Positions 4,276 to 19,347 of a stretch of DNA of 19,799 nt are shown here, piece after piece (position 1 is the stretch's first letter; each line of letters begins with the position of its first letter). Location of the stretch: assembly GCA_017861495.1 (NCBI GenBank), contig JAGFXW010000019.1, forward strand, positions 1 through 19,799, in the 5' to 3' direction. Made by a program: the position numbers and the translations under genes. The DNA comes from Bacillota bacterium (GTDB lineage: Bacteria > Bacillota_C > Negativicutes > CTSoil-072). The notes beneath the pieces were generated by a model that saw only the letters and a program-made list of their open reading frames with translations, was not told the DNA's origin and ran no database searches.

Positions 4276-5493
4276 ATGATGCTGGTAAAAGTACGAGATA
4301 TTTTCAAACTTCCCCAACTAAAAAGGCTGCGGCTGGTCGCAGGTGCCAAGGGATTGGACCGTACGTTACATTGGATCCACGTAGTTGAACTGCCGGATGT
4401 GATGAGTTGGGTCTTAGGCGGAGAACTGCTGTTCATGACAGGAGTAGGTATCCGTGATAATCTCGAAGTTCTCAACACAATCGTGAAAGAATGTGCCGAC
4501 AAAAATGTTGCCGGCTTGGTGATCAATACCGGGCCATATATTCACAAAACACCGGACAAAATAATCAAACTGGCCGACGGTTTACACTTCCCTATTTTTG
4601 AAATGCCCTGGGAGGTACGGCTTGTAGAAGTAACAAAGGATATTTGCAACTACATTATTGCCAAACAAATTGAGGAAAAATCCATTCAAGACATTATTGA
4701 AAATATTTTGTATGGCGATTGTTCAAACGCGGAAACGCTGCTGACACGGGCCGCCGTTTACGGTTACGACCTGGGAAATCTTCACCAGGTTATGCTGATA
4801 AAGCTTCACGACAATTTGGAGCATTATAAGCAGAATGATGCCTTTGCTGAAAATTATATATTGGATGTCAAGATGCGTTTTCAGCAAATCGTGCAAGGAA
4901 TTGTTGAAAAAAATGGTCAGAAGGCCTTGTTTATGACTCGCAGCGATAGGATCATCTTATTATTACCTTCCAACAATACTGCTAAAGAAAAACAAAGACT
5001 CGAAAGTATGGCTGCCGACTTATCAGAATCTGTCAAACTGTACTTAAACGGCAGAAAAATTAGTATTGGCTGCGGCAATCCATACGAGGGATTACAACAA
5101 CTGAAAACCAGCCTTGAACAAGCTGAGTTAGCCTTAAAAGTTGCCCAAGCATCTACTATAAAACGATTCTTCGATTATGAAAATTTAGGTTTTTTTAAAG
5201 TTTTATTTAATGTTCAAGACCGACGGCAACTCGAACTATTCCGTACAGAAGTCTTGGGAAAATTATATGAATACGACGATGTGCATCATACCGACCTGGT
5301 ACCGACACTAAAAACGTTTTTGGAAGAAAACGCGGACAACGTGGCTGTGGCTGATAAACTACATATCCATCGCAATACGTTAAAATATCGTTTGAAAAAA
5401 TGTACTGAGATAACTGAAAAAGATTTTTCAAATTCTCAAGACCGGACACTCCTGTACTTTGCCGCAATGGTGGATACATTTCTCAATCTGTGA
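4276..5493 (+). CDS. PucR-family transcriptional regulator
   Basis: A 405-residue cytosolic DNA-binding protein. Domain order: N-terminal PucR ligand domain (about 8-125, with the family's WIHVVELPD and GELLFMTGVG text), a central diverged GGDEF-like region (about 160-300) and a C-terminal HTH_30 helix-turn-helix (about 340-398, including ADKLHIHRNTLKYRLKK). Length is normal for the family. Relatives activate purine, allantoin or amino-acid/peptide catabolism in response to a metabolite; the target here is unknown. Two adjacent ATG codons (4276 and 4279) follow GGGAGAG and either could be used. It lies just outside the tRNA-scar-bounded island, 430 bp from the amidohydrolase gene that converges on it, so regulation of that gene is possible but only by proximity. 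Confidence 0.9.
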   Translation: MMLVKVRDIFKLPQLKRLRLVAGAKGLDRTLHWIHVVELPDVMSWVLGGELLFMTGVGIRDNLEVLNTIVKECADKNVAGLVINTGPYIHKTPDKIIKLADGLHFPIFEMPWEVRLVEVTKDICNYIIAKQIEEKSIQDIIENILYGDCSNAETLLTRAAVYGYDLGNLHQVMLIKLHDNLEHYKQNDAFAENYILDVKMRFQQIVQGIVEKNGQKALFMTRSDRIILLLPSNNTAKEKQRLESMAADLSESVKLYLNGRKISIGCGNPYEGLQQLKTSLEQAELALKVAQASTIKRFFDYENLGFFKVLFNVQDRRQLELFRTEVLGKLYEYDDVHHTDLVPTLKTFLEENADNVAVADKLHIHRNTLKYRLKKCTEITEKDFSNSQDRTLLYFAAMVDTFLNL

Positions 5494-5494
5494 T

Positions 5495-5556
5495 AATAGT
5501 AAAGAGGGTTGCCGACAGCGATCATTGTATCGCTAGCGGCAGCCCTCTTTACTATT
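5495..5556 (+). terminator. Long hairpin after the PucR gene
   Basis: AATAGTAAAGAGGG (5495-5508) is perfectly complementary to CCCTCTTTACTATT (5543-5556). Inside, TTGCCG/CGGCA and AGCGAT/ATCGCT extend the fold, giving an almost continuous 62-nt hairpin. There is no T-run after it, but the right arm itself is T-rich. It probably ends transcription from both sides, since the amidohydrolase gene converges on it. Confidence 0.6.
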
Positions 5557-5570
5557 CAGGTGGCTTATAA

Positions 5571-5600
5571 AAAACTCCGAAGCATTGCTTCGGAGCCGTG
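5571..5600 (-). terminator. Terminator still attached to the left tRNA scar
   Basis: A perfect 9-bp stem CTCCGAAGC-ATT-GCTTCGGAG (5575-5595). Read on the minus strand it is followed by a T-run (complement of the A-run at 5569-5574). It lies just downstream of the tRNA 3' half at 5608-5657, the usual place for a tRNA gene terminator. Confidence 0.75.
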
Positions 5601-5607
5601 ATTTTTC

Positions 5608-5657
5608 TGGTGACCCACCGGGGACTTGAACCCCGAACCCTCTGATTACGAGTCAGA
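5608..5657 (-). other. tRNA-Lys 3'-half remnant, older attachment scar
   Basis: The minus strand reads from the 5' strand of the anticodon stem (TCTGA), through loop CTCGTAA, variable loop, T arm (GGGGTTCAAGTCCCC), acceptor strand and encoded CCA: exactly 50 nt, equal to tRNA positions 27-76. The D arm and 5' acceptor strand are absent; sequence beyond 5657 does not match a tRNA. The apparent anticodon is CGT, but the rest is that of the CTT copy at 13376-13425, so a drifted tRNA-Lys remnant is more likely than a tRNA-Thr. Integrases that target tRNA genes leave such a fragment at one end of the element. It is not a functional tRNA. Confidence 0.82.
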
Positions 5658-5748
5658 TAAAAGTCATTTGCAAATATTTATGTTACCTTGTGAAACGTTG
5701 CAACCATCAGGCTGTTCGCATTTTTTCTTGGCATTAGTTTGGCAAAGG

Positions 5749-5777
5749 TGGTGACACTTTTTTAATCCCTGTCACCA
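5749..5777. repeat. Inverted repeat near the left scar
   Basis: TGGTGACA (5749-5756) and TGTCACCA (5770-5777) face each other across 13 bases, with the related word GTGCCACTA close by at 5781-5789. Position within 130 bp of the scar fits arm-type integrase binding sites of the first element, but no integrase is left to support this. Confidence 0.35.
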
Positions 5778-5922
5778 ATAGTGCCACTAATATGTTTTTA
5801 AATTGTACCATCATATTAGATTTACCATGTGTTTATACTGTCCATCAAACGGGGTACGACGCCTTCTTACATGACCCCAAAATACCTCGCTATAGTTTAT
5901 TTTTCACGGTAATCCATTAAAT

Positions 5923-7056
5923 TTACAAGTCTTTACCGCAATACACGATCTCTCCATTAGCAATGGTTGCCTTGGGAACAAAGAGTTTATCGCCCTTCCT
6001 GCTTTCGCCTTTCGAATCAATAAACTCAGCAGCATGATCTTCGATTTTACATATACACAAATCTGCTACAGCCCCGTCCTGTACTGTTCCGATTTCTTTT
6101 TCCATCCCCATTAATTTGGCCGGGGTTGCAGTGACTGCCCGGACGATAGCTTCTACCGTCATTCCTAAGCTTAAGTATTTCGACATGATGAACGATAAGT
6201 TTTTCACTGGTGAAATTCCTGGTGTATTAAAACTCAACTTAGTTAAATCAGTGCTAATGATATCGGGGAAAAAATTTTCTTTCAACGCAGGTATCGCTAC
6301 ATTATAATCAAAATTCATTCGGCCATTCGCTGCATCAAAAACTACACCCCGTTTTTTAGCTTCCCAAAATTCAGGTTTTACAGCGTTATTTTTGCCTATC
6401 ATAGTGGAACCTACACCTTGAAATATATGACAGTAAACATCATCCTTATCCAACATGGAAACGAGGTCCGCCGCATCTACGGGTGGATTGGTTGTATGGA
6501 CGCACACGGGAACATTCGATTTTCTTGCCAATTCCAATGTCTTTTGCATCGGCACCATTCCATGTTCTTCCACTAAGTGTTCACTGCATCTAATTTTAAT
6601 GCCTAAGATAATATCGCGATACCTATCTATTAAATAAGTTATTTTAGCTTCATCAAATAATGCGGGATCTAGCGATTCTTCAATCCCACCGCCAAGCTGG
6701 CCGATGGAGGAAATATTCAAATATGCTTTTATCTTCACCATACTTTTTTGTATCGTATTGCGATAAAAGTCTTCAAAGTTTATAGCCCCAGTAGACCCTG
6801 CATCTACTACTGCCGTAATTCCATAGGGGAACAGCAACTCCGGCTTCACTGCAAATGCACTGCCTTCATAAATATGTGTATGAAAATCAATAAACCCGGG
6901 GAATACATAGCAACCATCAGCATTAATTTTTTGCTTGGCAGCAATCGTTTCATCATAAGGAACTATTCGATCGTTTTTGATGGCAATTGTCTTTTTTCCT
7001 GCAAAATTTGCTGACGGATCTACAACGTATCCATTTTCAATAATCAAATTATACAC
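5923..7056 (-). CDS. Amidohydrolase-superfamily deacetylase (cog3964-like)
   Basis: A 377-residue cytosolic metal hydrolase with the dihydroorotase-like TIM-barrel signature: HTH at residues 59-61 (FHTHIYEG), a lysine at 154 (GIKIRCS) that could be carbamylated to bridge two metals, His187 (VHTTNPP), His210 (HIFQG) and Asp270 (STDLT). All expected metal or catalytic ligands are present, so it is likely active. The closest family I recognise is cog3964 (Atu3266/EF_0837 type), whose members cleave acetyl or amide groups from small hydroxy or amino acids; the substrate here is not determinable. Translation starts at GTG 7056, preceded by AGGGGGAA. It lies downstream of the second MFS gene on the same strand but after 256 bp holding a strong hairpin, so it may have its own promoter. 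It looks more AT-rich than the oxidoreductase upstream. Confidence 0.82.
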   Translation of the reverse strand: MYNLIIENGYVVDPSANFAGKKTIAIKNDRIVPYDETIAAKQKINADGCYVFPGFIDFHTHIYEGSAFAVKPELLFPYGITAVVDAGSTGAINFEDFYRNTIQKSMVKIKAYLNISSIGQLGGGIEESLDPALFDEAKITYLIDRYRDIILGIKIRCSEHLVEEHGMVPMQKTLELARKSNVPVCVHTTNPPVDAADLVSMLDKDDVYCHIFQGVGSTMIGKNNAVKPEFWEAKKRGVVFDAANGRMNFDYNVAIPALKENFFPDIISTDLTKLSFNTPGISPVKNLSFIMSKYLSLGMTVEAIVRAVTATPAKLMGMEKEIGTVQDGAVADLCICKIEDHAAEFIDSKGESRKGDKLFVPKATIANGEIVYCGKDL

Positions 7057-7238
7057 AATTATTCCCCCTTATCTGTCTATCCGGCAGAAACATCAATCGT
7101 GCTCCTACACTAGGTTTCATTCCCTAAAGATGAACTTCAAATTCATTGCTCAAGATCTAGATTGTCAATGTGCCGACAAGTTACATAGAATTATATCACA
7201 GAAAGGCTTCTTGGCCGTTACAGCCGTCGAACAGCTTC

Positions 7239-7276
7239 GCGACGCAATCTGCCGGCACGGCGACAGGTTGCGTCGC
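7239..7276. other. GC-rich hairpin between MFS and amidohydrolase genes
   Basis: GCGACGCAA (7239-7247) pairs perfectly with TTGCGTCGC (7268-7276), with a further short inner stem. On the plus strand it is followed by TTTCTTT. On the coding (minus) strand no T-run follows, so it is a weak terminator there and may instead be an RNA-stability or partial termination structure that lowers amidohydrolase expression. A TTGACA (complement of 7163-7168) lies between it and the next gene, without a good -10. Confidence 0.45.
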
Positions 7277-7312
7277 TTTCTTTAATGATTCAAAACCGTT
7301 TGATTATTTTGC

Positions 7313-8611
7313 TTACACCGTGCGCGCTCTATCAAATCTAACGAAATAGGAGCACACCACTCCTGCCAAACAAATCACCCCGGCTGCCGCAAAAGCTGCG
7401 TTATAACCATAACCGGTAACTAGCAAACCCGTTACAGTAGGTGCTGCCATAGCTGCTATTTGCCCTAAGAAATGCATGATCCCGCCGAAAGTACCTGTTC
7501 TTGACGGATCAATATCGATCAAATTGCTCCAATAAATCGAATTTGACATTAACGCCGCTGAATTGCCAAGCGCCATCATGGTAAGAACCCCAGTCATGGT
7601 GCTCATTTGGGGTATAAGCAAGAAACATAACCCGGACAACGAGAGGGAAACCATAGCCACACTGTTTCTGGCAATTCTTAAATTACCAGTCCGCGCATAA
7701 ATCATATCCGCGATTTTACCCCCGAGAGGTGTGGTCAATATCGGGCCAATCCAGGGGACCATTCCCAGATACGATAAGGAAGTTAAACTCATATTGTACA
7801 CATCTTGCAAATATTTAGGGGTCCAGGCCAATAACATGAATATAATGTAACTAATGCCGAAGAAGCCAACGGTATTCAATAGATAAGAAGGATTCTTAAA
7901 GAAATCATACCAATGCCCGTCGCGAATTTCAATGGCTGCATCTTTAACCTGCAAGGCTGCAGCGCCGCCGCTTCTGATCTCAGCCAACTCTTCTTTGGAT
8001 ACTTTTGGATGCTCTTCTGGTAAGTTAGTAAAGATTCGCGAGAAAATAAGGGCCCAGGCAATCCCTATTCCACCCAATACAATCAACAATGTCCGCCAAT
8101 CGCTTATCGACAACAAGAATACAGCAACCGGAGCCGTGATTACAGATCCTAACGGTGTCCCGATCAAGGTGATGGAAGATGTAAATGTACGCTCTTTAGG
8201 AGCCACCCAATTAGCCAACGTTCTGCTCATGGTAACGAAGGAAGGACCTTCTGCAAAACCAAACAGTACACGGACAACGAAGAATCCAGCCATGGCAGAA
8301 CCGCCAAAGAAGGCCATGCCAATATTGCCGGCGAAAGCGGTCAAAGCCACACAAATTGACCACAGCGTAACAAACAGAAGCCAAACATACCTGGGTCCCT
8401 TTCTATCGGCTAATGCGCCGCCAAATAGGCCGCCAAAAATGTAACCATACCCAAAAAAGCCGTGGATACTTCCCCATTGGGCAGCTGTGAAGCCAAATTC
8501 TTTAATAATATCTTTCTGCGCATACGCTAGGGCTCCCCTGTCGATATAGTTAGTAATCATGATTAGCAACACCATAAATATGATAATATAACGATATTTT
8601 GTAGTTTTCAT
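7313..8611 (-). CDS. MFS permease, anion:cation symporter type (second of two)
   Basis: A 432-residue inner-membrane protein with 12 predicted helices and a central cytoplasmic loop near residues 190-225. The N-terminal half shows the MFS motif A region (GGALADRKGPR, about residues 60-72) and NYIDRGALAYA in helix 1, as in hexuronate/glucarate-type members of the anion:cation symporter family. It probably imports an organic acid with protons; the substrate is not known. ATG at 8611 is preceded by GGAGGAG. The gene starts 20 bp after the stop of another MFS gene of the same family but only distant sequence, so the two are not a recent duplication. Two permeases in one operon suggest two related substrates, or one for uptake and one for exchange. 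Confidence 0.85.
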   Translation of the reverse strand: MKTTKYRYIIIFMVLLIMITNYIDRGALAYAQKDIIKEFGFTAAQWGSIHGFFGYGYIFGGLFGGALADRKGPRYVWLLFVTLWSICVALTAFAGNIGMAFFGGSAMAGFFVVRVLFGFAEGPSFVTMSRTLANWVAPKERTFTSSITLIGTPLGSVITAPVAVFLLSISDWRTLLIVLGGIGIAWALIFSRIFTNLPEEHPKVSKEELAEIRSGGAAALQVKDAAIEIRDGHWYDFFKNPSYLLNTVGFFGISYIIFMLLAWTPKYLQDVYNMSLTSLSYLGMVPWIGPILTTPLGGKIADMIYARTGNLRIARNSVAMVSLSLSGLCFLLIPQMSTMTGVLTMMALGNSAALMSNSIYWSNLIDIDPSRTGTFGGIMHFLGQIAAMAAPTVTGLLVTGYGYNAAFAAAGVICLAGVVCSYFVRFDRARTV

Positions 8612-8631
8612 AATTTTCTCCTCCGCTACTT

Positions 8632-9966
8632 TTACCTTACTTTTCTGCTACTTTCCGCGATCAATTCGTCGGCTGTTTTTGCGGCTTTGAGAGAAATTGT
8701 AATTCCTGCAGAAACGATCAGGAATGCGGCAATAAAATAAAACCCAGCATAGGCATTACCACCGGCGACCGTTTTTATTGCCCCGATCCCAACGGGACCG
8801 ATAAATCCGCCTAGATTTGCAATGGAATTGATCGCTGCCATAGCCACTGCTGCCTGTTTCCCTGCATACACCGTGCCCGTCAAAGCCCAAAAGGATCCGT
8901 AGATGCTGTAGGAACCGCAATAAACGATGGTGAGGAAAACCACTGCAAGCACTGGAGTTTTGATTACTGCTAAGCCAATTAGGCCTATGGCACAGATCAA
9001 TACGGAAATGGTCACATGCCAGCGGCGTTCACCTGTCTTATCCGAATGATTACTCCACCAAACCATGAAGCAGGCTGCAAAAATAAAGGGTACCGCGTTC
9101 AGCAAGCCGACTTCGAAGTTGGACAAACCGGCCTTCAGACCTTTGAGCAGCGTCGGTGCAAAGAAACTCACGCCGTAAACCGCCAATGTTTTACTGAAGT
9201 ATATGATGGCCAATGCCCAAACAGTTTTTCCTGTTAAAGCGCTCCACATCGAATGCTTATGTTTGCTCTCAATTTCCTTATGCTCAATTGCAATTTTGTC
9301 TTCTAGCCAGGTTTTTTCTTGCTCGGAAAGGAATTTTGCATCACGAGGTCTGTCAGGAAGGCTCGTAAACGTAATGATACCCAGAATACAAGTAGGCAGT
9401 CCTTCCAGGATAAACAACCAGCGCCAACTGGAGATTCCCAACCAATTGACATAATCCAGAACTAACCCTGAAACCGGCGAACCGATAATTGACGAAATGG
9501 GCAGTGCCAACATGAATAACGCAACTACTTGGGCACGCTCTTTCGCCGGAAACCAGTAGGTCATATACAACATGATACCCGGAAAGAATCCGGCTTCCAT
9601 GACGCCGAGAATGAATCGTGCAATATACAGCTGCATTTCATTTTGAATTAAGCCACACGCCGCAGAAGCAAATCCCCAGGTAATGAGGATCCGGCCGATC
9701 CACTTACGGGCCCCTACCTTGGACATGATCAAATTACTGGGAACCTCAAATAAAAAATACCCGATGAAAAAGATACCTGCCACTAGGCCGTATTGTGCTG
9801 CTGAAATTCCCAACTCCTTATTCATTGTAAGAGCAGCATAACCAACATTAACTCTATCCAACATTGCAAAGAAATACAATAATACTAGAAAAGGTATTAA
9901 GCGGTTTTTTACTTTGGTCATCGTACTTTTTTCAAAGGTAGCTGCATCTTGGATCGTGTTTGCCAT
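8632..9966 (-). CDS. MFS permease, anion:cation symporter type (tartrate/phthalate-like)
   Basis: A 444-residue, 12-helix inner-membrane transporter. Helix 1 ends with AMLDRVNVGYAAL and the 2-3 loop with VPSNLIMSKVGARKW, both characteristic of the anion:cation symporter family, subgroup of tartrate (TtuB) and phthalate permeases. GVMEAGFFPGIMLYMTYWFP in helices 4-5 is another hallmark of that subgroup. It likely imports a di- or hydroxycarboxylate with protons. ATG at 9966 has AAGGGGTG upstream. It lies 46 bp after the oxidoreductase gene and 20 bp before the next permease gene, so it is the third gene of the rraA-led operon. Confidence 0.87.
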   Translation of the reverse strand: MANTIQDAATFEKSTMTKVKNRLIPFLVLLYFFAMLDRVNVGYAALTMNKELGISAAQYGLVAGIFFIGYFLFEVPSNLIMSKVGARKWIGRILITWGFASAACGLIQNEMQLYIARFILGVMEAGFFPGIMLYMTYWFPAKERAQVVALFMLALPISSIIGSPVSGLVLDYVNWLGISSWRWLFILEGLPTCILGIITFTSLPDRPRDAKFLSEQEKTWLEDKIAIEHKEIESKHKHSMWSALTGKTVWALAIIYFSKTLAVYGVSFFAPTLLKGLKAGLSNFEVGLLNAVPFIFAACFMVWWSNHSDKTGERRWHVTISVLICAIGLIGLAVIKTPVLAVVFLTIVYCGSYSIYGSFWALTGTVYAGKQAAVAMAAINSIANLGGFIGPVGIGAIKTVAGGNAYAGFYFIAAFLIVSAGITISLKAAKTADELIAESSRKVR

Positions 9967-10012
9967 GTTTAATCACCCCTTCATCTTTCTTGTTCCAGCC
10001 AGAGAAGTTGTT

Positions 10013-10885
10013 TTATTCCGCTAGGGCTTGGGTCACAGCTTCCCATTTGTCAGGGATCTCGCCGTGAAATTTATCTTTCAAGTTTTTCTCCGCCAAATAT
10101 TTCAGGTGCAGCATGGTGGCTTCGGTCATGATGGGCGCAATACCTAGATCCCGGAGCATAACCATACAGTCTTTCATCTCGTGCGACTGCCGCTCCGCAT
10201 GGATTGCGCCGGCTGTGACCAACATATTCATCGTTTTGACGAAAGGCGCTGCATCCATGGTGTTGGAAATGGAAGCGAGCACCAGGTCTTCCACCTGCAA
10301 TTTTGTCGCTGCCTCCAGCATCTCCGCTTGCAAAGACGCAATTCCTTTCATATAGATGCTGCGCACGAGTTTTATGGCAATGGCATCGCCAGCCTTGTCA
10401 CTCACTTTTTTCAGAGACATATGATAAGGTGTCATCAAATCAATAAATTTGCTTGCGCCGTTGCCACTGACCAAAGTAGGTACTTTGTGTTGCTCTACGG
10501 TCAGTCTTCCCATCAATGCCCCATCCACGAAGCCTGCGCCGGTGAGTGCGATGAGCTCCGCGATTTTTTGTTTTGTCGTAGGTGACGAAGTAGAGACATC
10601 GGCATAAATTTTTTGCTGATTGAGCTCGGCTGCAATCCCTTCTGCTGTCTGTAAAGCGTAAGCGCCCGGAACAGCCGAGATAATTACGTCCGTTGCTTTC
10701 ACCACATCACCCGGTTCGCTTAAAAGCGATACTGCCGCTACAGCCGCTCTTTCCTGCACTAATGGTCCATATTTTGGATCATCCTTCATCGGATCAAAGG
10801 CTACTATTCCTTGCAGCCCTTCCATCTTCAAGCCCCGCGATATTTCAAAAGCCACTTCCCCAAAACCAATAAATCCTAATTTCAT
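10013..10885 (-). CDS. NAD(P)-dependent 6PGDH-like oxidoreductase with DUF1932 domain
   Basis: A 290-residue cytosolic dehydrogenase of the beta-hydroxyacid dehydrogenase superfamily. The N-terminal Rossmann domain begins with GFIGFGEVA (residues 4-12; GxGxxx dinucleotide motif). The catalytic lysine is probably K172 in AIKLVRS. The C-terminal part (about 175-265) has the DUF1932 pattern with HAERQSHEMKD at 229-239. Family members oxidise 3-hydroxy acids or related sugar acids; the reaction here is inferred, not proved. ATG at 10885 follows GGGGAGG. The gene lies 59 bp downstream of rraA and 46 bp upstream of an MFS gene. It uses visibly more G and C than the amidohydrolase gene. Confidence 0.85.
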   Translation of the reverse strand: MKLGFIGFGEVAFEISRGLKMEGLQGIVAFDPMKDDPKYGPLVQERAAVAAVSLLSEPGDVVKATDVIISAVPGAYALQTAEGIAAELNQQKIYADVSTSSPTTKQKIAELIALTGAGFVDGALMGRLTVEQHKVPTLVSGNGASKFIDLMTPYHMSLKKVSDKAGDAIAIKLVRSIYMKGIASLQAEMLEAATKLQVEDLVLASISNTMDAAPFVKTMNMLVTAGAIHAERQSHEMKDCMVMLRDLGIAPIMTEATMLHLKYLAEKNLKDKFHGEIPDKWEAVTQALAE

Positions 10886-10944
10886 GCTAATTCCTCCCCT
10901 AATGTCAGGATGTCTATTGGATTATCCCGAAATTATTACAACTT

Positions 10945-11622
10945 CTAGACAATTTCGCAGCCAATTTCCTTGAGTTTTTCATCCACCCACGACCGAATAT
11001 AGGTTCCTTTATTTACAATTCCGTCCATAATACCCTGTTCTTTTTCACTGACTTTTCGAGTTTGTTCGGCGATGTATCTTGCTTCTTCCGGTTTTATAAC
11101 GACAATTCCATCACCATCGCCAACGACAATATCTCCTGGGCATACTGCTCTGCCGCCAAACGAAATAGGGGTATTAATTTCTCCTGGACCATTTTTATAC
11201 GGCCCATTTGGCGTAACTCCTTTAGCGTATACCGCAATGTCCATCTCTGCCAAAGCATCAGCATCACGAACGCTGCCATCAACGATTACACCGGCTATGC
11301 CTCTGCTTTGGCAATAGGTAATCATCAATTCACCGAAGATAGCGCGCTTAATATCGCCGCCGGCATCAATGACAATCACATCGCCAGGTTGAGCTAGGTC
11401 CATTGCTTTGTGAAACATCAGGTTGTCTCCTTCAGGAACCTTTACCGTAAACGCAGGTCCCAACAGGGTTGTCTTGTTCATCGGTTTTATCATAGGATCG
11501 ACTGCTGCCGTGCGGCTCATGCAATCATCGATATTGGCAACCGGTAGATCTTTGAATAATTGTATCAATTTTTTATCTGGTCTTACAAAATCTCTCACAA
11601 TTTTACAGCCTGGATTTTTCAT
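10945..11622 (-). CDS. RraA-family aldolase (4-hydroxy-4-methyl-2-oxoglutarate aldolase type)
   Basis: A 225-residue cytosolic protein of the RraA/MenG fold. Conserved features seen: DDCMSR at 32-37, GPAFTV at 55-60, GELM at 97-100 and VDGSVRDAD at 114-122, where Arg119 and Asp120 correspond to the substrate and metal-binding pair, and GDGDGIVVI near 168-176. Family enzymes use a divalent metal to split 4-hydroxy-2-oxo acids into pyruvate plus a second oxo acid, and also decarboxylate oxaloacetate. The true RNase E inhibitor role is unlikely in this context, because the neighbours are catabolic. It is the first gene of the minus-strand operon, ATG at 11622 following a GGGGG ribosome site, and is divergent from the lysR gene. 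Confidence 0.88.
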   Translation of the reverse strand: MKNPGCKIVRDFVRPDKKLIQLFKDLPVANIDDCMSRTAAVDPMIKPMNKTTLLGPAFTVKVPEGDNLMFHKAMDLAQPGDVIVIDAGGDIKRAIFGELMITYCQSRGIAGVIVDGSVRDADALAEMDIAVYAKGVTPNGPYKNGPGEINTPISFGGRAVCPGDIVVGDGDGIVVIKPEEARYIAEQTRKVSEKEQGIMDGIVNKGTYIRSWVDEKLKEIGCEIV

Positions 11623-11665
11623 TTTTATGCCCCCATACGTTAATCAATTAGTTCTGTGAAAGAGA

Positions 11666-11810
11666 AATTATCCTATTGTGCACGATAAGATAATTATTTG
11701 AAAATCCGCGAATTAACAAAATTGTTTATCTATTTAGAAGTTTATAGTATATTATTATTAAAGTAAAACGACTAATTTCGCTATTACTAATCACGATTTC
11801 GATAATTATC
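11666..11810. promoter_or_regulatory. Divergent rraA-lysR control region
   Basis: The word GATAATT occurs at 11689-11695, again inside the palindrome GATAATTATC at 11801-11810, and inverted at 11667-11673. The first and last of these form an imperfect palindrome around TTGTGCAC (11676-11683). A minus-strand promoter for rraA can be read as TTGTTA (complement of 11714-11719), 17 bases, TAATTA (11691-11696), overlapping these repeats. LysR regulators bind such divergent regions, so these are candidate operators. Confidence 0.4.
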
Positions 11811-11826
11811 TTTGGGAGGGAAAATC

Positions 11827-12741
11827 ATGTATGCACTAGGAATAGAAGCATTTTTGGCTGTAGTGCGAACGCAAAATATTACCCAGGCGGCTAAAATGCT
11901 GAATTTAGCGCAATCAACGACAAGCAAACGATTGAAAATGCTGGAACAGGAATTAGGAACCGCCTTGTTTGAGAGAGGGAAAGGGTGGAAATCGATCCGT
12001 TTAACCCCTGCCGGTGAGGAATTTGTTGATATGGCAGAGCAGTGGAATTCTCTTTGGCAAGAAACGCAGCTTCTAATGCAAGGCAAACCCAAACTTGCCC
12101 TGTCAATTGGCACATTGGATAGTATAATTAATTCCATATTTCCTGCGTTGTATTTTGCATTAAGTCAGCACGAACCTAAATTAAGTTTAAAAATAATCAC
12201 TTCCCATTCACCTGCTCTATATGAAGACGTAGAACGAAGAAATGTGGATGTCGCTTTTTCTCTACTAGACAGGACTCATCCAAACGTCATCGTAGAAAAA
12301 TGCTATACTGAACCAATGGTAGTATTACGTCCTGCAATATCATACCAAACAGAAGCTGGTTTTATTCATCCAACCGAATTAAATCCTGAAGATGAACTGC
12401 ATGTTAGTTGGAATCCTGGTTATCAGTTGTGGCATGATCATTGGTGGCTAACTGCGAGTCCAGGCCAAACAAAGGTGGATACGGTGCAACTGATCCTGGC
12501 AATGTTAAAAAAGACGGAACAGTGGTCCATAGTGCCCTTATCAGTTGCAAAAGCAGCTCGCTCAAAAGGGATTTTTTCCATATTCTATTTAACCGAACCG
12601 CCGCCTGAGCGCATATGTTACATACTGAAACATAAATATCCTAAATCAAGCACAGTGCAAGCACTAAAAATTTTCGACCATTATCTTAAGCTTCTGGTGC
12701 AGAAAGAATTTGCCAACACTTCAACGATCGAAATACTATAA
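11827..12741 (+). CDS. LysR-family transcriptional regulator
   Basis: A 304-residue cytosolic regulator. The N-terminal winged HTH (residues 3-60) has the family pattern AFLAVVRTQNITQAAKMLN, QSTTSKRLKMLEQELG and FER, then RLTPAGEEF. The effector-binding domain covers about 87-290. It most likely controls the divergent rraA operon in response to an intermediate of that pathway; this is inference from the head-to-head arrangement. ATG at 11827 is preferred because GGGAGGG lies 7-13 bases upstream; an in-frame TTG at 11812 would start within that ribosome site. The gene ends 20 bp before the terminal repeat of an IS66 remnant, so its original downstream neighbour is gone. Confidence 0.92.
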   Translation: MYALGIEAFLAVVRTQNITQAAKMLNLAQSTTSKRLKMLEQELGTALFERGKGWKSIRLTPAGEEFVDMAEQWNSLWQETQLLMQGKPKLALSIGTLDSIINSIFPALYFALSQHEPKLSLKIITSHSPALYEDVERRNVDVAFSLLDRTHPNVIVEKCYTEPMVVLRPAISYQTEAGFIHPTELNPEDELHVSWNPGYQLWHDHWWLTASPGQTKVDTVQLILAMLKKTEQWSIVPLSVAKAARSKGIFSIFYLTEPPPERICYILKHKYPKSSTVQALKIFDHYLKLLVQKEFANTSTIEIL

Positions 12742-12761
12742 ACTCTACTAGAAGATAATTT

Positions 12762-12968
12762 GTAAGCGATTAACAAGAGGATGGATATGAAGAGGGCAAA
12801 ACTTAAGTATACTCATACTCAAGTTTTGCCCTCTTTGCAGATTGTTTGAATTCTTGGGTTCCAAGGAAGATAATCTTCGAGAAACTCAGGATATTGTCCG
12901 AACTGAACGCCAGGCAGGTCCTGGAAGATGAACTTTAGATAGGCATAAGGCTTCAAGCCGTTGGCCTT
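12762..12968 (-). mobile_element. IS66-family remnant: right end and transposase C-terminus
   Basis: The minus strand encodes the last 49 codons of an IS66 transposase (12819-12968), beginning KANGLKPYAYLKFIFQDLP and including LPWNPRIQ, the standard C-terminal element of IS66 TnpC. The left edge at 12762 reads GTAAGCGAT, the start of IS66-family terminal repeats, so one genuine element end survives 57 bp beyond the stop. The rest of the transposase, tnpA, tnpB and the other end are missing; sequence changes abruptly after 12968 into a dehydrogenase fragment. The element is immobile. Confidence 0.85.
12790..12835. terminator. Hairpin inside the IS66 end, behind lysR
   Basis: AAGAGGGCAAAACTT pairs with AAGTTTTGCCCTCTT (15 bp), followed inside by AGTAT/ATACT around the loop ACTC. 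The arms overlap the transposase stop codon at 12819-12821. The plus-strand right arm ends in CTCTTT, so it probably terminates lysR as well as the old transposase transcript. Confidence 0.6.
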
Positions 12969-12971
12969 AAA

Positions 12972-13118
12972 AATCACCCACTATTAACCTGTGACAATTT
13001 TATTGCAACACCTCATAACGGTGCAAACACCGCAGATGCGCTAATTCGCATGGGCGTCGGAGCTGTTGATGAAATTACAAGGCTTAAAAACGGCGAAATT
13101 CCTCTATCCAAGCTTTAA
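12972..13118 (+). pseudogene. D-2-hydroxyacid dehydrogenase, C-terminal fragment
   Basis: An open stretch of 48 codons without its own start encodes the end of a D-isomer-specific 2-hydroxyacid dehydrogenase: NHPLLTCDNFIATPHNGANT contains the catalytic histidine in TPH, and the rest (MGVGAVDEITRLKNGEIPL) matches the usual last helix and tail of phosphoglycerate-dehydrogenase-like proteins. About 270 N-terminal residues expected for the family are missing. The fragment abuts the broken IS66 transposase within 4 bp, so one deletion probably removed the start of both genes. The intact gene may have belonged to the same catabolic cluster as rraA. Confidence 0.8.
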
Positions 13119-13338
13119 TCAAATTTTTCGAAAGGAAAATACAGCTTAACTTATCAAGTTATCATTATTGGTTTGATCGAGAAAAAGTATTACGCATAAT
13201 AAATAAGGCTGTAGCAGGCAGTTATAAAGGGTCCGACGTATTTGTTTTTTGATATGCTCCTTTGTTTCTCTTGATGATAAATTGCATTCATTTTTAAATG
13301 ACTGTTACTAGCACTATCACTATCACTAGTCAACATAA

Positions 13339-13367
13339 TAAAAAGCCCCGCATCGCTGCGAAGCCTT
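13339..13367 (-). terminator. Terminator still attached to the right tRNA scar
   Basis: On the minus strand GCTTCGCA (complement of 13358-13365) pairs with TGCGGGGC (complement of 13344-13351) through two G-T pairs, and a T-run follows (complement of 13339-13344). It sits downstream of the tRNA 3' half in the same place as the hairpin at the left scar, but its sequence differs. Confidence 0.65.
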
Positions 13368-13375
13368 GATTTTTC

Positions 13376-13425
13376 TGGTGACCCACCGGGGACTCGAACC
13401 CCGAACCCTCTGATTAAGAGTCAGA
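13376..13425 (-). other. tRNA-Lys(CTT) 3'-half remnant, newer attachment site
   Basis: Exactly 50 nt on the minus strand match tRNA-Lys positions 27-76: perfect 5-bp anticodon stem TCTGA/TCAGA, loop CTCTTAA with anticodon CTT, T arm with GGTTCGAGTCC, acceptor strand GGTGGGTC and CCA. The 5' half is missing. With the scar at 5608-5657 it forms a 59-bp direct repeat differing at two bases. This is the left junction of an element that extends to the right; the complete tRNA should stand at its far end. Confidence 0.87.
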
Positions 13426-13517
13426 AACAGCTCATTTGTGTTTATTTATGTTAACTTACAAACCTTTGTTTTTACTGGATTTATCTTTGTTTTAACTGTA
13501 ATTAATTGGAATTCAGC

Positions 13518-13620: not shown

Positions 13621-13953
13621 TTATTCTTTTTCTTTCATGCTTGCCTCTTTTAATGCAAGTTTTTTGGCCAGCCTTACGCTGTCTGGTGGCCTTCCTCCTT
13701 TTTTCTTTCTGGCCGGATCGGCTTCTTGTTTTGATTTGACGATTTTCATCGGGACCGGCAATCTCGCGGCAATTTCCTCTGCCGACTGTTCCGCATATTT
13801 TTTCAGCGCCTCTAGCCCTGCTTCCACATGTACTCGAACATGACGTGCTCCAGTTCGCACATGCGGGATTTGTCCCTGCCGGATCATTTTTCGCAGTAAA
13901 TCTTCCGGCAACCCAACCCGTTCCGAAAAGACTTTTACCGTTTCAAAGATCAT
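13621..13953 (-). CDS. Small HTH protein beside the attachment site, possible excisionase
   Basis: A 110-residue basic protein. Residues 4-45 (VKVFSERVGLPEDLLRKMIRQGQIPHVRTGARHVRV, only its pattern being relevant) resemble a MerR-like winged helix of the excisionase type (HTH_17). The tail (78-110) is rich in Lys and Arg, suggesting DNA contact. Start: ATG at 13953 is preferred over the longer frame beginning with TTG at 14052, because AAGGAAGG lies before it and a promoter-like TATAAT lies within the would-be extension. As the first gene inside the tRNA junction it is a good candidate for a recombination directionality factor, although no integrase lies next to it. That role is inference; a plain repressor is the alternative. 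Confidence 0.6.
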   Translation of the reverse strand: MIFETVKVFSERVGLPEDLLRKMIRQGQIPHVRTGARHVRVHVEAGLEALKKYAEQSAEEIAARLPVPMKIVKSKQEADPARKKKGGRPPDSVRLAKKLALKEASMKEKE

Positions 13954-13981
13954 TCGCCTCACGACCTTCCTTTGCAATAAA

Positions 13982-14092
13982 TTGTTTTTCTGCTTCCTAT
14001 CTATTATAATCAAATTAAGAAAGCTCTGTTTCGCGGTCCCCTCCTTGGGCAATTGTAGCCCTATGGACTGGTACCAGGCAGAGCTTTTTTTC
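13982..14092 (+). ncRNA. Candidate small RNA with own promoter and terminator
   Basis: TTGTTT (13982-13987), a 17-base spacer and a perfect TATAAT (14005-14010) predict a plus-strand start near 14017. About 75 nt later a stem AAAGCTCTG/CAGAGCTTT (14020-14028 with 14079-14087) ends in eight T. Between the arms are GGGC-loop-GCCC and GTCC/GGAC pairings, so the transcript would fold as one branched structure. It contains no plausible reading frame with a ribosome site. It lies head-to-head with the HTH gene starting at 13953, and the two -10 boxes overlap in ATTATAAT. It matches no riboswitch or RNA family that I recognise. Confidence 0.42.
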
Positions 14093-14187: not shown

Positions 14188-14385
14188 TTATTTATCGCCT
14201 AATAAACAGACCAATCGTATGCCCAAAGCATTAGAAACTTTCATTGCTCGCTGTAGTGTAGGTTCATTTCTCCCAGAAATCCAACTTTTGACCGTTCGGG
14301 CCGGTAATCCGGCTTTAGCTGCAAGGTCATTAATCGTCCAGCCACGCTTATTTATTTCCATTCTTAAGTTATTACGAAATGACAT
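14188..14385 (-). CDS. Cro/C1-type HTH repressor, short
   Basis: A 65-residue protein that is almost entirely one HTH_3/XRE domain: NNLRMEINKRGWTINDLAAKAGLPARTVKSWISGRNEPTL, where AAKAGLP and TVKSWISGR mark the two helices of the motif. There is no oligomerisation or peptidase tail, so it is smaller than lambda-type repressors and nearer to Cro or plasmid-type regulators. ATG at 14385 follows AAAAGGAG at ideal spacing; the longer frame from 14484 has no ribosome site. Upstream lies an inverted repeat (14412-14460) that could be its operator. It likely controls the prophage or element, perhaps through the HTH gene at 14544-14750. Confidence 0.75.
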   Translation of the reverse strand: MSFRNNLRMEINKRGWTINDLAAKAGLPARTVKSWISGRNEPTLQRAMKVSNALGIRLVCLLGDK

Positions 14386-14411
14386 ATTTCCATCTCCTTT
14401 TGGTTTTTGCT

Positions 14412-14460
14412 TCCGAAAGGATGTCGATATGTTATACTTATCAAGACAATCCTTTTCGGA
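14412..14460. promoter_or_regulatory. Inverted repeat and extended -10 upstream of the repressor
   Basis: TCCGAAAGGATGTC (14412-14425) and GACAATCCTTTTCGGA (14445-14460) are imperfect inverted repeats. The 19 bases between them hold TGTTATACT (14430-14438), an extended -10 on the plus strand, and TATAAC on the minus strand. This is the layout of a repressor operator overlapping divergent promoters. Confidence 0.45.
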
Positions 14461-14525
14461 GGTTGTTCTGTGAGGAAGTTGCACCGTCTTTGCGAGAGAT
14501 GGGGTGCAGCTTCCTTTTCATTTTC
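14445..14525 (+). ncRNA. Possible second small RNA or leader
   Basis: The plus-strand extended -10 at 14430-14438 would start a transcript near 14445. It would end at a 12-bp stem GGAAGTTGCACC/GGTGCAGCTTCC (14474-14485 with 14503-14514), followed by TTTTCATTTT. An alternative is a 43-codon frame starting at GTG 14470, seven bases after GGAGG; it overlaps the hairpin and the next gene and resembles nothing known. The -35 region is poor, so evidence is moderate to weak. Confidence 0.3.
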
Positions 14526-14543: not shown

Positions 14544-14750
14544 TCAGCTGCCATTCTGGCGCATTTCTTCTGGCGGCTTTCCGGTGTTTACCTTAATATA
14601 ATCCTTTACGCTGCCTTCTGTAATTCGCCATTGGCGACCAACCTTAAACCCAATTAATCTTCCTGTTTTTAGTTCATCCGCGATTACCTGCTCTGATACT
14701 TTTAATAATTCCGCTAGCTCTTTTGGAGAGTAAACAGGTTCCAACGTCAA
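14544..14750 (-). CDS. Excisionase-family HTH_17 DNA-binding protein
   Basis: A short protein of about 68 residues. YSPKELAELLKVSEQVIADELKTGRLIGFKVGRQWRI follows the standard HTH_17 (MerR-like winged helix) pattern, ending with the Trp-Arg-Ile wing and DYIK. Such proteins act as excisionases or as small regulators of mobile elements. The frame also opens at GTG 14759, but that codon overlaps the ribosome site AAGGAGGTG, so TTG at 14750 (seven bases after GGAGG) is the likely start. The promoter is very strong (14776-14805) and carries phased repeats. Together with the neighbouring repressor and the other HTH gene it forms the control module of the element. Confidence 0.75.
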   Translation of the reverse strand: MTLEPVYSPKELAELLKVSEQVIADELKTGRLIGFKVGRQWRITEGSVKDYIKVNTGKPPEEMRQNGS

Positions 14751-14775
14751 ATTATACACCTCCTTTTTTTGTTTT

Positions 14776-16793: not shown

Positions 16794-16863
16794 TTGTATA
16801 TACAATGGGGAGAATGCAAATAAGTTCACTGAATTATTTATTAAATAGGTGTTTATAACCATT

Positions 16864-16904
16864 AAACAGCGAGCCTCTTTATCAGAGTAGCCCGCTGTTT
16901 TTTT
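16864..16904 (+). terminator. Terminator of the envelope cassette
   Basis: AAACAGCG (16864-16871) pairs with CGCTGTTT (16893-16900), with CTCT/AGAG inside, and runs into seven T. It lies 70 bp after the last gene of the cassette. Confidence 0.85.
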
Positions 16905-16931
16905 GTATTGATTTTGTGAAAACCTAATCTT

Positions 16932-17222
16932 TCAATCCGGATCGTTGGCTCTTGTATGCCAATTTATTGCAGTGCGGCAAGCCAAATAACACTCTTCCAA
17001 ATATAGATCACGTACCCGGCGCCCACAAGCGGGACAGATAAAAAGGGCTCAGTAAAATCGCAAACATTTTACCCACTCAATAGCTATCAAGAGATTAACC
17101 GCCTCATGATTATGCTGGTAAGAAATTTCAACGCTAAACCCATAAGCCGTAACTGTCGCATAGCCACAAGAAAAGCCATTTTCATCGATCCACTCGTATA
17201 AGAATACAGAGCCGACAGCCAA
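16932..17222 (-). pseudogene. Zinc-ribbon phage protein, broken by an in-frame TGA
   Basis: One continuous minus-strand frame of 97 codons (from TTG 17222) is interrupted by TGA at 17049-17051. Before it the frame reads GSVFLYEWIDENGFSCGYATV and IAIEWVKC; after it FICPACGRRVRDLYL and CYLACR. The set (IEW-x-x-C, then FxCPxCGRRVxxLYL, then a CR motif) is that of a widespread small prophage or plasmid zinc-ribbon protein. The second ribbon half is also damaged, with only one cysteine in place of CRxC. There is no good ribosome site at the start. I therefore read it as a decayed gene. Confidence 0.6.
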
Positions 17223-17257
17223 TTTCTTTACTCATTGCCAGATACTTATATTTACTT

Positions 17258-17500
17258 TCAACGCATATTCAACAAGGTTTTTGCAATTAACAAGCTTCCA
17301 GTATCACGAACCTGCACCGCCCATAACATTAAACCTTTCGCGAAATCATTAAAGTGAATTGTAGCCTCCATAGTGATGTGTTTGCAAGTTTTATGATTTT
17401 TTTCGCGAGACCATAAAAGACGTTCGCTTCCAGGTAATGAGTTACTGGAGGTGAAATCAACAATGAAAAACATCTGGCGCGTAATATTGCAGCAAAGCAT
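17258..17500 (-). other. Open frame of doubtful reality
   Basis: An 80-codon minus-strand frame with no ribosome site at its start. An internal ATG at 17370 would give 37 residues (starting MEATIHFNDFAKG), also without a ribosome site. It could be another worn phage gene, since it lies between two broken ones on the same strand. It resembles nothing I recognise, and part of it lies opposite the peptide gene at 17463-17540. Confidence 0.2.
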
Positions 17501-17540
17501 CGTTTACCTGGTAAAGAAAATCATCGACAACCTGTTTTAA
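17463..17540 (+). CDS. Possible 25-residue amphipathic peptide
   Basis: ATG at 17463 is preceded by an excellent ribosome site, GGAGGTGA, eight bases upstream. The 25 codons begin MKNIWRVILQQ and end KKIIDNLF: a basic, amphipathic or membrane-active helix with a central hydrophobic stretch (SIVYLV). Size and composition recall type I toxin peptides or small membrane regulators, but I recognise no family. It stands alone on the plus strand within a decayed minus-strand zone. No strong promoter is visible, and its last bases overlap the broken gene on the other strand. Confidence 0.4.
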   Translation: MKNIWRVILQQSIVYLVKKIIDNLF

Positions 17541-17689
17541 TCATGCCTTGCATTGAGGTCTTCCTTGCAGAACCCCCTGCACCATTAATTGAAACTCGGG
17601 TACCAATTCAATTGAGCTTCCACTTTTTGCTCTTCACTACCTAGTAAATTACCGCAGCCGCAAGTGAGGATGCGCTTAACAGATTGCAA
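17537..17689 (-). pseudogene. Possible Com-like zinc-ribbon remnant
   Basis: From TTG at 17689 the minus strand reads QSVKRILTCGCGNLLGSEEQ and continues to TAA at 17585-17587; in the same frame beyond the stop comes WCRGFCKEDLNARH. A CxC pair, a GNLLG stretch and a later CxxxC pair suggest a small Com-type zinc ribbon of Mu-like phages that has lost exact cysteine spacing and gained a stop. Recognition is tentative. Confidence 0.3.
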
Positions 17690-17701
17690 AACGATATTAG
17701 A

Positions 17702-17738
17702 AAACCCAAGGATACAAAGAATGTTCGTACCCTTGGGT
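17702..17738 (-). terminator. Terminator after the virion-protein gene
   Basis: On the minus strand CCCAAGGGTAC (complement of 17728-17738) pairs with GTATCCTTGGG (complement of 17706-17716), with one G-T pair, and TTTTCT follows. It lies 50 bp beyond the stop at 17788. Confidence 0.75.
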
Positions 17739-17787
17739 GGTTAATGCCCTAGTTTCAATCGAGGGTATAGTTTTAATTACCTTTCCT

Positions 17788-19347
17788 CTATTTCCAATAC
17801 TTATTTTGAATATACGCTTGAGCTTCTGCCGACGTCATTGGCTTTGCACCATTAAAACCGCCAGCGACAAGTTTGTTGTATAAAGCATCGTATTCAGCAT
17901 CAGTAATTTTGTTGCTTTTGGTTTGTCCTTGGCCACCCATTGCAGCATATAGCGTTTCCATAGCCTGCGGTAGATATACAGCATAAGGATTGACCCGCGT
18001 ATCCTTCGCGTCTTGACGGCTTCTTTCAAATGTTAAGTAGGCGTCGGATATATCGTTTGCTGCCGATAAAGACAACTTTCCGTTTCCGTCGGCACCGTTT
18101 TTATCTTTCACTTGTTGTAGTTCTTTCTGCGTATTGGTTGATAGTTGCGCCCGCCAATTTTGTCCGGCGTTATTCACATCCGTATTCCGCATTGACGTAT
18201 TATCGTGGTTCGTGGCAATTTCTTTCTGCGTCTGAGTGGTAAGAACCGTATCAGGTTTATAGCCAACAGGCATTGCAACCGATTGTCCTTGACCGGTTTT
18301 CGTGTTATACATCGTTACCGTCTTTTGATTGCCTTGGTCAGTAGTATTGACCTCATAATTCGGCGTAGCGCCACTTAACAGGGAAGTCATTTGCTTGCCA
18401 CCGTTTAATTGGTCAATACGAGAAGCCAACGCATACGCGGTTTGCATATCGCCGCCAGCGATCGCTTTTTGCATTGCCAGTTGCAGCGGTTGAACATTCG
18501 CTTGGTTGTACTGTTGTTTCGCCCAAGCGTCTTGTCCCTGCATGACTTCCTCGACGTTGGCAGAAGCGTGGCCGTTTTTCAGTAATTGCAGTTTCAAGTT
18601 GTTGGTATAGGAAGCAGGATCGAAGCCTGCGGATGCTTTCGCTTTGGCTAATGCTGCCGCCCGATCATCTACCGACTGATTGCCACCTAACTGTTGGACC
18701 AGACGATCTACCGTCAACGTGTAATCAGGATTGGACGTTTGCCGCGCTAAGGCAAGCTGTGTTATGTTAGGCTGCGCTGCTTGCGGTACTCCTATATCGG
18801 CTGACGTTGGCGCTTGTACGCCGCTAGTCGGCAGTACGGTATTCGCCAATTGCTGTTGTTGAGTGGTTACCGGTTGCTGTTGCATGAAGCTCTGCTGTTT
18901 CGAGGCAGCAAGCGCATCAGCCGCGCTTGCATCTTTCCTATACGAACCATTAAGAGACGGGAACATGGACCGCAGATAATCGCTTTGCGCCTCGATTTTC
19001 TTCTGCTGTGCGGTAATGGCGGCCTGGCCTTTATCATCGAGGCCGTTTTTCTGCTGCTCTAATCCTTCCCAGGTTTGCTTATTTTTCAAGATAAGAGCAT
19101 CCGTCTTTTGTCCAACCACATCGGAGGAAACCCCCGATCCCGCCAACAATTGATTTAAAGCATCGACTTTATCCTGTTCGTTCACTATTCCATTGGTTGC
19201 ATTCGCTTTATAGGCTTCGGCATCAGCGGCGGTACGCTTCAAGTCAATTAGGCGTTGGTTATTGCCAATCGCCCCGCCGATCAGGGCACCAACCGCATAC
19301 CCGGCGTCGTTCGTTTGGCTGTTAGGATTTCTTAGCCATTGTGTCAT
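17788..19347 (-). CDS. Phage internal virion or DNA-ejection-like protein
   Basis: A 519-residue protein without signal peptide. It opens with NDAGYAVGALIGGAIGNN (residues 13-30), a glycine-zipper-like membrane-active segment, followed by alanine- and glutamine-rich helical sequence with a low-complexity QQQPVTTQQQQ stretch near 155-165. This composition (one glycine zipper near the N-terminus, then long Ala/Gln-rich helices) is that of internal virion or injection proteins of tailed phages, especially podoviruses; no defined domain is recognised, so the call is by resemblance. ATG at 19347 has AAAGGAGG upstream and overlaps the stop of a 31-codon frame (ATGA). Base composition is richer in G and C than the envelope cassette. 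Confidence 0.55.
   Translation of the reverse strand: MTQWLRNPNSQTNDAGYAVGALIGGAIGNNQRLIDLKRTAADAEAYKANATNGIVNEQDKVDALNQLLAGSGVSSDVVGQKTDALILKNKQTWEGLEQQKNGLDDKGQAAITAQQKKIEAQSDYLRSMFPSLNGSYRKDASAADALAASKQQSFMQQQPVTTQQQQLANTVLPTSGVQAPTSADIGVPQAAQPNITQLALARQTSNPDYTLTVDRLVQQLGGNQSVDDRAAALAKAKASAGFDPASYTNNLKLQLLKNGHASANVEEVMQGQDAWAKQQYNQANVQPLQLAMQKAIAGGDMQTAYALASRIDQLNGGKQMTSLLSGATPNYEVNTTDQGNQKTVTMYNTKTGQGQSVAMPVGYKPDTVLTTQTQKEIATNHDNTSMRNTDVNNAGQNWRAQLSTNTQKELQQVKDKNGADGNGKLSLSAANDISDAYLTFERSRQDAKDTRVNPYAVYLPQAMETLYAAMGGQGQTKSNKITDAEYDALYNKLVAGGFNGAKPMTSAEAQAYIQNKYWK

Follow-up and report, generated by a model that had tools for sequence, protein, structure and literature searches.

Probable stepwise accumulation of two integrative elements at a tRNA-Lys(CTT) gene in a relative of the Negativicutes

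In the accretion of cis-mobilizable elements (CIMEs), an integrated element loses its integration and transfer genes but keeps its attachment sites, and a newcomer then joins it at the rebuilt target gene (PMC5704250). A study of 303 Streptococcus agalactiae genomes, cited in PMC7563491, found tRNALys CTT to be the site of 215 CIMEs, whether single or stacked, and in the composite regions of the Streptococcus salivarius study reported in PMC7563491, the most decayed element was always the one farthest from the target gene. Among genomic islands at large, the Islander survey found 2083 of 3919 to be anticodon-centred and listed 125 tandem arrays of at least two (PMC4383910). Here, we analyze a 19,799-nt stretch of DNA (hereafter, the window), part of a 69,513-nt contig (JAGFXW010000019.1) of a Bacillota bacterium, in which two integrative elements probably came to be stacked at a single minus-strand tRNA-Lys(CTT) gene, with element 1 (5658-13367) entering before element 2 (from 13426 to beyond the right end of the window). 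The locus illustrates a known process in good resolution, and the pattern itself is well known in other bacteria.

Like the tandems of CIMEs with integrative and mobilizable elements (IMEs) or integrative and conjugative elements (ICEs) described in Streptococcus, this locus combines integrase-less cargo between flanking attachment sites with a second element stacked on it, both at the 3' end of a single target gene (PMC5704250, PMC7563491). The decayed member is likewise the one farthest from the gene, and the target tRNA is the same as in S. agalactiae (PMC7563491). In contrast to those tandems, neither element, as far as it lies in the window, has a recognised conjugation or mobilization gene, element 2 carries phage-type regulators, the host is a relative of the Negativicutes, and the left attachment site is mismatched in the presumed overlap. 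As in the tandem islands of the Islander survey, tRNA 3' fragments in the same orientation mark the ends (PMC4383910), with orientation compared here between the two halves, whereas the intact tRNA gene would lie outside the window. Islander demands an integrase for each island, so that element 1 would be filtered out (PMC4383910).

The principal evidence is a pair of direct repeats of 59 bp (5599-5657 and 13367-13425), located on the same strand 7768 nt apart and identical at 57 of 59 positions. The two mismatches, at 5627 and 5649, split the match into exact runs of 28, 21, and 8 nt, and the first base outward of the repeat (5598/13366) is also unlike. Because no other place in the window, on either strand, exceeds 30 of 59 identities to either copy, chance is excluded as the source of the pair. 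Each copy contains 50 nt of tRNA-Lys on the minus strand, namely, positions 27-76 including the CCA end, without the 5' half; these are the left scar (5608-5657) and the right scar (13376-13425). Both halves start at position 27, within the 5' strand of the anticodon stem. ARAGORN found no complete tRNA in the window, and the Rfam tRNA model matched both halves on the minus strand below its threshold (26.7 and 26.3 bits, against a cut-off of 29).

Each half is followed downstream on the minus strand by its own terminator-like hairpin with a T tail (5597-5573 and 13367-13342). The two terminator stretches (5567-5599 and 13335-13367) share 22 of 33 positions, a value as high as this being reached in 5 of 200,000 resamplings. 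Two distinct terminators fit one original and one brought in: that of the left scar (5573-5597) would be the terminator of the original tRNA-Lys gene, and that of the right scar (13342-13367) would have been brought by the attachment site of element 1. The inner sides of the halves are related as well. When aligned according to the tRNA halves, 5658-5700, at the inner end of element 1 and inside a 134-nt repeat (D1), and 13426-13468, at the inner end of element 2, are identical at 29 of 43 positions, a level matched in 1 of 200,000 first-order resamplings, and TCATTTG and TATTTATGTTA occur in register at both ends. Judged from the sequence, this likeness is as expected of two attachment-site (attP) arms for similar integrases. 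The motif TTTATGTTA was also considered as a dispersed arm-site repeat and rejected, since alone it has 10 matches with at most one mismatch across the window, against 10.5 expected by chance.

The 59-bp repeats with their two differences and their coordinates, the tRNA portions lacking the 5' half, the separate downstream terminators, and the related inner sequences had all been described in a sequence-only reading of this DNA, and each was borne out by our analysis. That reading had further proposed that two related elements entered the same tRNA gene one after the other. Serial integration is indeed the best explanation, given the orientation of the halves, their common break, the terminators, and the inner ends; the word "related", however, holds for the attachment-site ends and no further, because element 1 has no recognised integrase and the genes observed fall into different families in the two elements. 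The break in the anticodon stem, to which the same reading drew attention, is present in both copies and is no special feature, considering the proportion of anticodon-centred islands in the Islander survey (PMC4383910).

A point overlooked in the sequence-only reading is that the anticodons of the two halves differ, being CGT on the left (5648-5650) and CTT on the right (13416-13418). The mismatch at 5649 falls within the anticodon loop (5646-5652), and the T loop holds the second difference between the halves. Because everything else, the acceptor strand included, matches the right half, the most plausible reading of the left half is a fragment of tRNA-Lys with an anticodon change that would have been acquired after separation from the gene. 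Derivation of the left half from a tRNA-Thr(CGT) gene was considered, on the basis of the typical letters of tRNA-Thr and tRNA-Lys, and rejected: both halves have in common the acceptor strand, T stem, variable region, and anticodon stem, and a point change is simpler.

Strand exchange generally needs homology in the overlap between the recombining sites. With tyrosine integrases, the 7-bp overlap often coincides with the anticodon loop and the core sites with the anticodon stem (PMC8371274). In the origin that we favour, a tyrosine-type integrase of element 1 would have made the crossover in the anticodon loop or close to it. Integration would have moved the original 3' half and its terminator to the far end of the element, and the half carried by the element would have restored the gene. 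After this entry, the original half would have been located at the left end (5608-5657), and the 3' half of the rebuilt tRNA would be the one now found at 13376-13425. Element 1 would then have lost its integrase end through insertion sequence (IS) activity and deletion, and element 2 would later have recombined with the rebuilt tRNA gene, leaving the right scar at its own left end. The resulting order would be the original half with its terminator (5573-5657), element 1, the half and terminator of element 1 (13342-13425), element 2, and the intact gene, with the intact tRNA-Lys and the integrase of element 2 expected at the far right end of the latter, beyond the window. We infer that element 1 came first because it is decayed, because the anticodon of the left scar is changed, and because the most decayed element lies farthest from the target in the S. 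salivarius composites (PMC7563491).

The right end of element 1 consists of remnants. The C-terminal end of an IS66 transposase (12861-12968, minus strand) was matched by the Pfam model DDE_Tnp_IS66_C (E 1.3e-5; 25.7 bits, below the curated cut-off of 30) and, in tblastn comparison with annotated IS66 transposases, reached at best 53% identity (E 3e-6). The C-terminal end of a D-2-hydroxyacid dehydrogenase (12969-13100, plus strand) was recognised by phmmer through a 3-phosphoglycerate dehydrogenase in the PDB (E 2.5e-5), with only a weak match to 2-Hacid_dh_C in Pfam (E 0.13). Next to it is an open fragment of 50 codons and a stop at the end of the element (13100-13252, plus strand), the best Pfam match of which has an E value of 0.14, and for which tblastn yielded no match to plasmids or phages at E up to 1. 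Thus, three gene fragments, two of them with an identity, are packed within about 390 nt just left of 13342. The minus-strand IS66 tail directly abuts the plus-strand dehydrogenase tail at 12968/12969; this junction is probably a deletion scar.

No match to Phage_integrase was obtained in the six main open reading frames (ORFs) of element 1 searched with Pfam or in six-frame scans of its two ends (12742-13367 and 5658-5923), the gaps between genes lying outside the six-frame scans. The IS66 tail was the sole recombination or transfer gene recognised with Pfam and NCBIfam in the six ORFs and with Pfam in the two ends. Compared with a CIME, element 1 has attachment-site sequence on both sides (5599-5700 and 13335-13425, with one mismatch in the left anticodon loop) and lacks recombination and transfer genes in the profile scans; the tyrosine integrase that characterizes an island from within was absent from the ORF and end scans. 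The gene remnants in element 1 represent decay, and none was recognised as conjugation machinery; the element may equally derive from an ICE or IME, from a phage, or from another island. "CIME-like" is the furthest label that this evidence allows.

Two viral records offer a guide to where an integrase would be expected. Faecalibacterium phage Roos (L005:3977-4053) contains a tRNA-Lys(CTT) stretch, with a tyrosine integrase gene on the opposite strand starting 53 bp past the CCA end. ARAGORN calls this stretch tRNA-Lys, but its upstream part is devoid of the usual D-arm letters, and it may be read, contrary to ARAGORN, as an attachment-site half or else as a phage-borne tRNA. In an IMG/VR viral record (G003/L014), a tRNA-Lys half at 30299, with the pattern starting at position 27, has an integrase match downstream of it, encoded on the other strand (30493-31053). 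With this geometry, the integrase of element 1 would be expected just left of 13342, where the remnants are found. Both records resemble the present locus in having a tRNA-Lys(CTT) half that starts at the anticodon stem or inside it, and both have a tyrosine integrase downstream of this half. They differ from it in the letters of the acceptor and T stem, in the absence of the inner-arm motifs of this locus from the 45-50 nt inspected upstream, and in being, as far as seen, single elements, whereas here two are stacked. More generally, a looser tRNA-Lys pattern hit 11 loci in the viral contig collection, of which 10 were called tRNA-Lys(CTT) by ARAGORN and one (L014) held the half alone; Phage_integrase was found in two of these 11 records, that of L014 and G010. 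The right half matched 15 plasmid and 5 phage records, and among the seven inspected, ARAGORN called tRNA-Lys in six, including Roos, and not in the seventh (L010).

Several results weigh against the proposed origin. The window contains neither an intact tRNA-Lys nor a recognised integrase, so that the loss of an integrase by element 1 is deduced from absence, and the fragment at 13100-13252 was unlike an integrase in every search made. Exact scans of the viral contig collection with the half, a shorter half, and the half together with the inner arms gave 0 matches each. In GC content and GC content at third codon positions (GC3), element 1 is not distinct from the chromosomal left flank; a foreign origin by base composition is thus not supported. 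Protein searches with the PucR regulator of the flank and the DUF1932 dehydrogenase of the cargo revealed no separate history for the block, the best non-self identities being 90% over 64% of the length for the former and 88% for the latter.

An alternative that we consider unlikely is that elements 1 and 2 were joined in another cell and entered together, in which case the right scar would be an internal relic. Such an event is expected to leave an identical structure in the window, and acquisition of a whole composite is stated to be possible for tandems of this kind (PMC5704250, PMC7563491). It requires, however, that the outer sites were competent at the time of transfer, and the left scar differs in the anticodon loop, although this change may have occurred later. 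Similarly unlikely is the reverse order, in which element 1 was the later arrival and recombined with the displaced 3' half that element 2 had left at its own left end. With its anticodon loop preserved, this half would be a usable target, and the architecture of the window would be the same; yet it is element 1 that is decayed, the most decayed member being farthest from the target in all composites of one study (PMC7563491), and it is the left scar that bears the anticodon change expected of the copy longer free of selection. That the halves are decayed duplicates of tRNA-Lys genes in native chromosome (5.6-13.4 kb) with no integration at all, which would agree with a block that lacks a recognised integrase and resembles its flank in composition, is very improbable, because random decay could hardly break both copies at the same anticodon-stem nucleotide, preserve the CCA end and terminator of each, and yield inner similarity in register.

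Under the proposed serial integration, the two sites flanking element 1 no longer agree in the presumed crossover region. The anticodon change of the left scar lies within the 7-nt loop expected to serve as the strand-exchange overlap, so that element 1, alone or as part of the pair, probably excises poorly or not at all and may be stranded, whereas element 2 alone could still be excisable. If the change blocks strand exchange, the locus would be a natural case of a mobile block becoming permanent chromosome, fixed by a point mutation in a tRNA half that has been displaced, is not under selection, and also serves as the attachment site. The locus is also a record of stacking at tRNA-Lys(CTT) in a lineage of the Negativicutes and of the small catabolic block that stacking left behind.

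This block, the 7.7 kb of element 1 between the tRNA halves, consists of metabolic genes. On the minus strand, it encodes an amidohydrolase of the PRK12394 family (5923-7056; NCBIfam NF009060, 476 bits against a cut-off of 442), a major facilitator superfamily (MFS) transporter (7313-8611; Pfam MFS_1), a second MFS transporter for which the closest models, HpaX and galactonate transporter, score below their cut-offs (8632-9966; 46% identical to a Priestia aryabhattai plasmid gene), a hydroxyacid-type dehydrogenase with a profile match to DUF1932 (10013-10885), and an RraA-like aldolase (10945-11622; Pfam RraA-like, with NCBIfam PRK06201 above cut-off). A LysR regulator (11812-12741; Pfam HTH_1 and LysR_substrate) is encoded on the plus strand. 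Among the 132 plasmid records with a match to the DUF1932 gene, the four best relatives (47-49% identity) are all on Priestia plasmids, and on one P. aryabhattai plasmid (L004), RraA, DUF1932, amidohydrolase, and MFS genes are adjacent, with 30-49% identity to those of element 1 and without a LysR counterpart. These plasmid clusters indicate that, by protein similarity, clusters like the cargo of element 1 do occur on mobile DNA, and the combination of RraA, DUF1932, amidohydrolase, and MFS genes suggests a travelling catabolic pathway.

Of element 2, 6.4 kb are visible. Close to the right scar, three minus-strand genes encode an excisionase-like or Cox-like DNA-binding protein (13621-14052; TIGR01764 above cut-off, phrog_575 at E 5e-5), a Cro/C1-type regulator (14188-14484; Pfam HTH_3 and several phage regulator families), and another excisionase-like DNA-binding protein (14544-14759; TIGR01764 above cut-off, phrog_1840); these excisionase-like and Cro-like genes are directed towards the scar. 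They are followed by three plus-strand genes encoding proteins of 178-225 aa and then by the minus-strand gene of a 519-aa near-orphan protein (17788-19347). A search for the latter in a database of 5.8 billion sequences, with the 7994 best word-sharing candidates scored, recovered one non-self relative at E <= 1e-3, a protein of 524 aa encoded on a 55-kb contig and 49% identical over 93%. Scans of this protein against Pfam, PHROG, and NCBIfam gave nothing at E <= 0.001, and it is possibly a virion protein; scans of the viral contigs with two element 2 proteins gave no relative. No integrase was found in the eight ORFs or in a six-frame scan of 16794-17788, within the 6.4 kb visible of an element for which the integrase is expected at the unseen far end. 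Element 2 may be a prophage or another integrative element. A more speculative scenario, which we regard as unlikely, is that element 2, possibly a temperate phage, excises together with element 1 by recombination of the left scar with the intact tRNA-Lys; a 7.7-kb catabolic cassette would then be moved between Negativicutes cells by a phage-type integrase rather than a conjugative element, and the change in the left scar would act as a brake that governs whether the cargo leaves or stays.

To the left of element 1, the chromosomal flank encodes a PucR-type transcriptional regulator (4276-5493, plus strand; Pfam PucR, GGDEF_2, and HTH_30). Its named homologues include records from Negativicutes, Sporomusaceae, Lucifera, and Pelosinus, and a scan of genome contigs with it returned one locus, a relative with 28% identity in Sporolactobacillus. 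Directly after this gene, at 5495-5556, is an inverted repeat with 28-nt arms that are 89% complementary and separated by a 6-nt spacer, which is probably a terminator.

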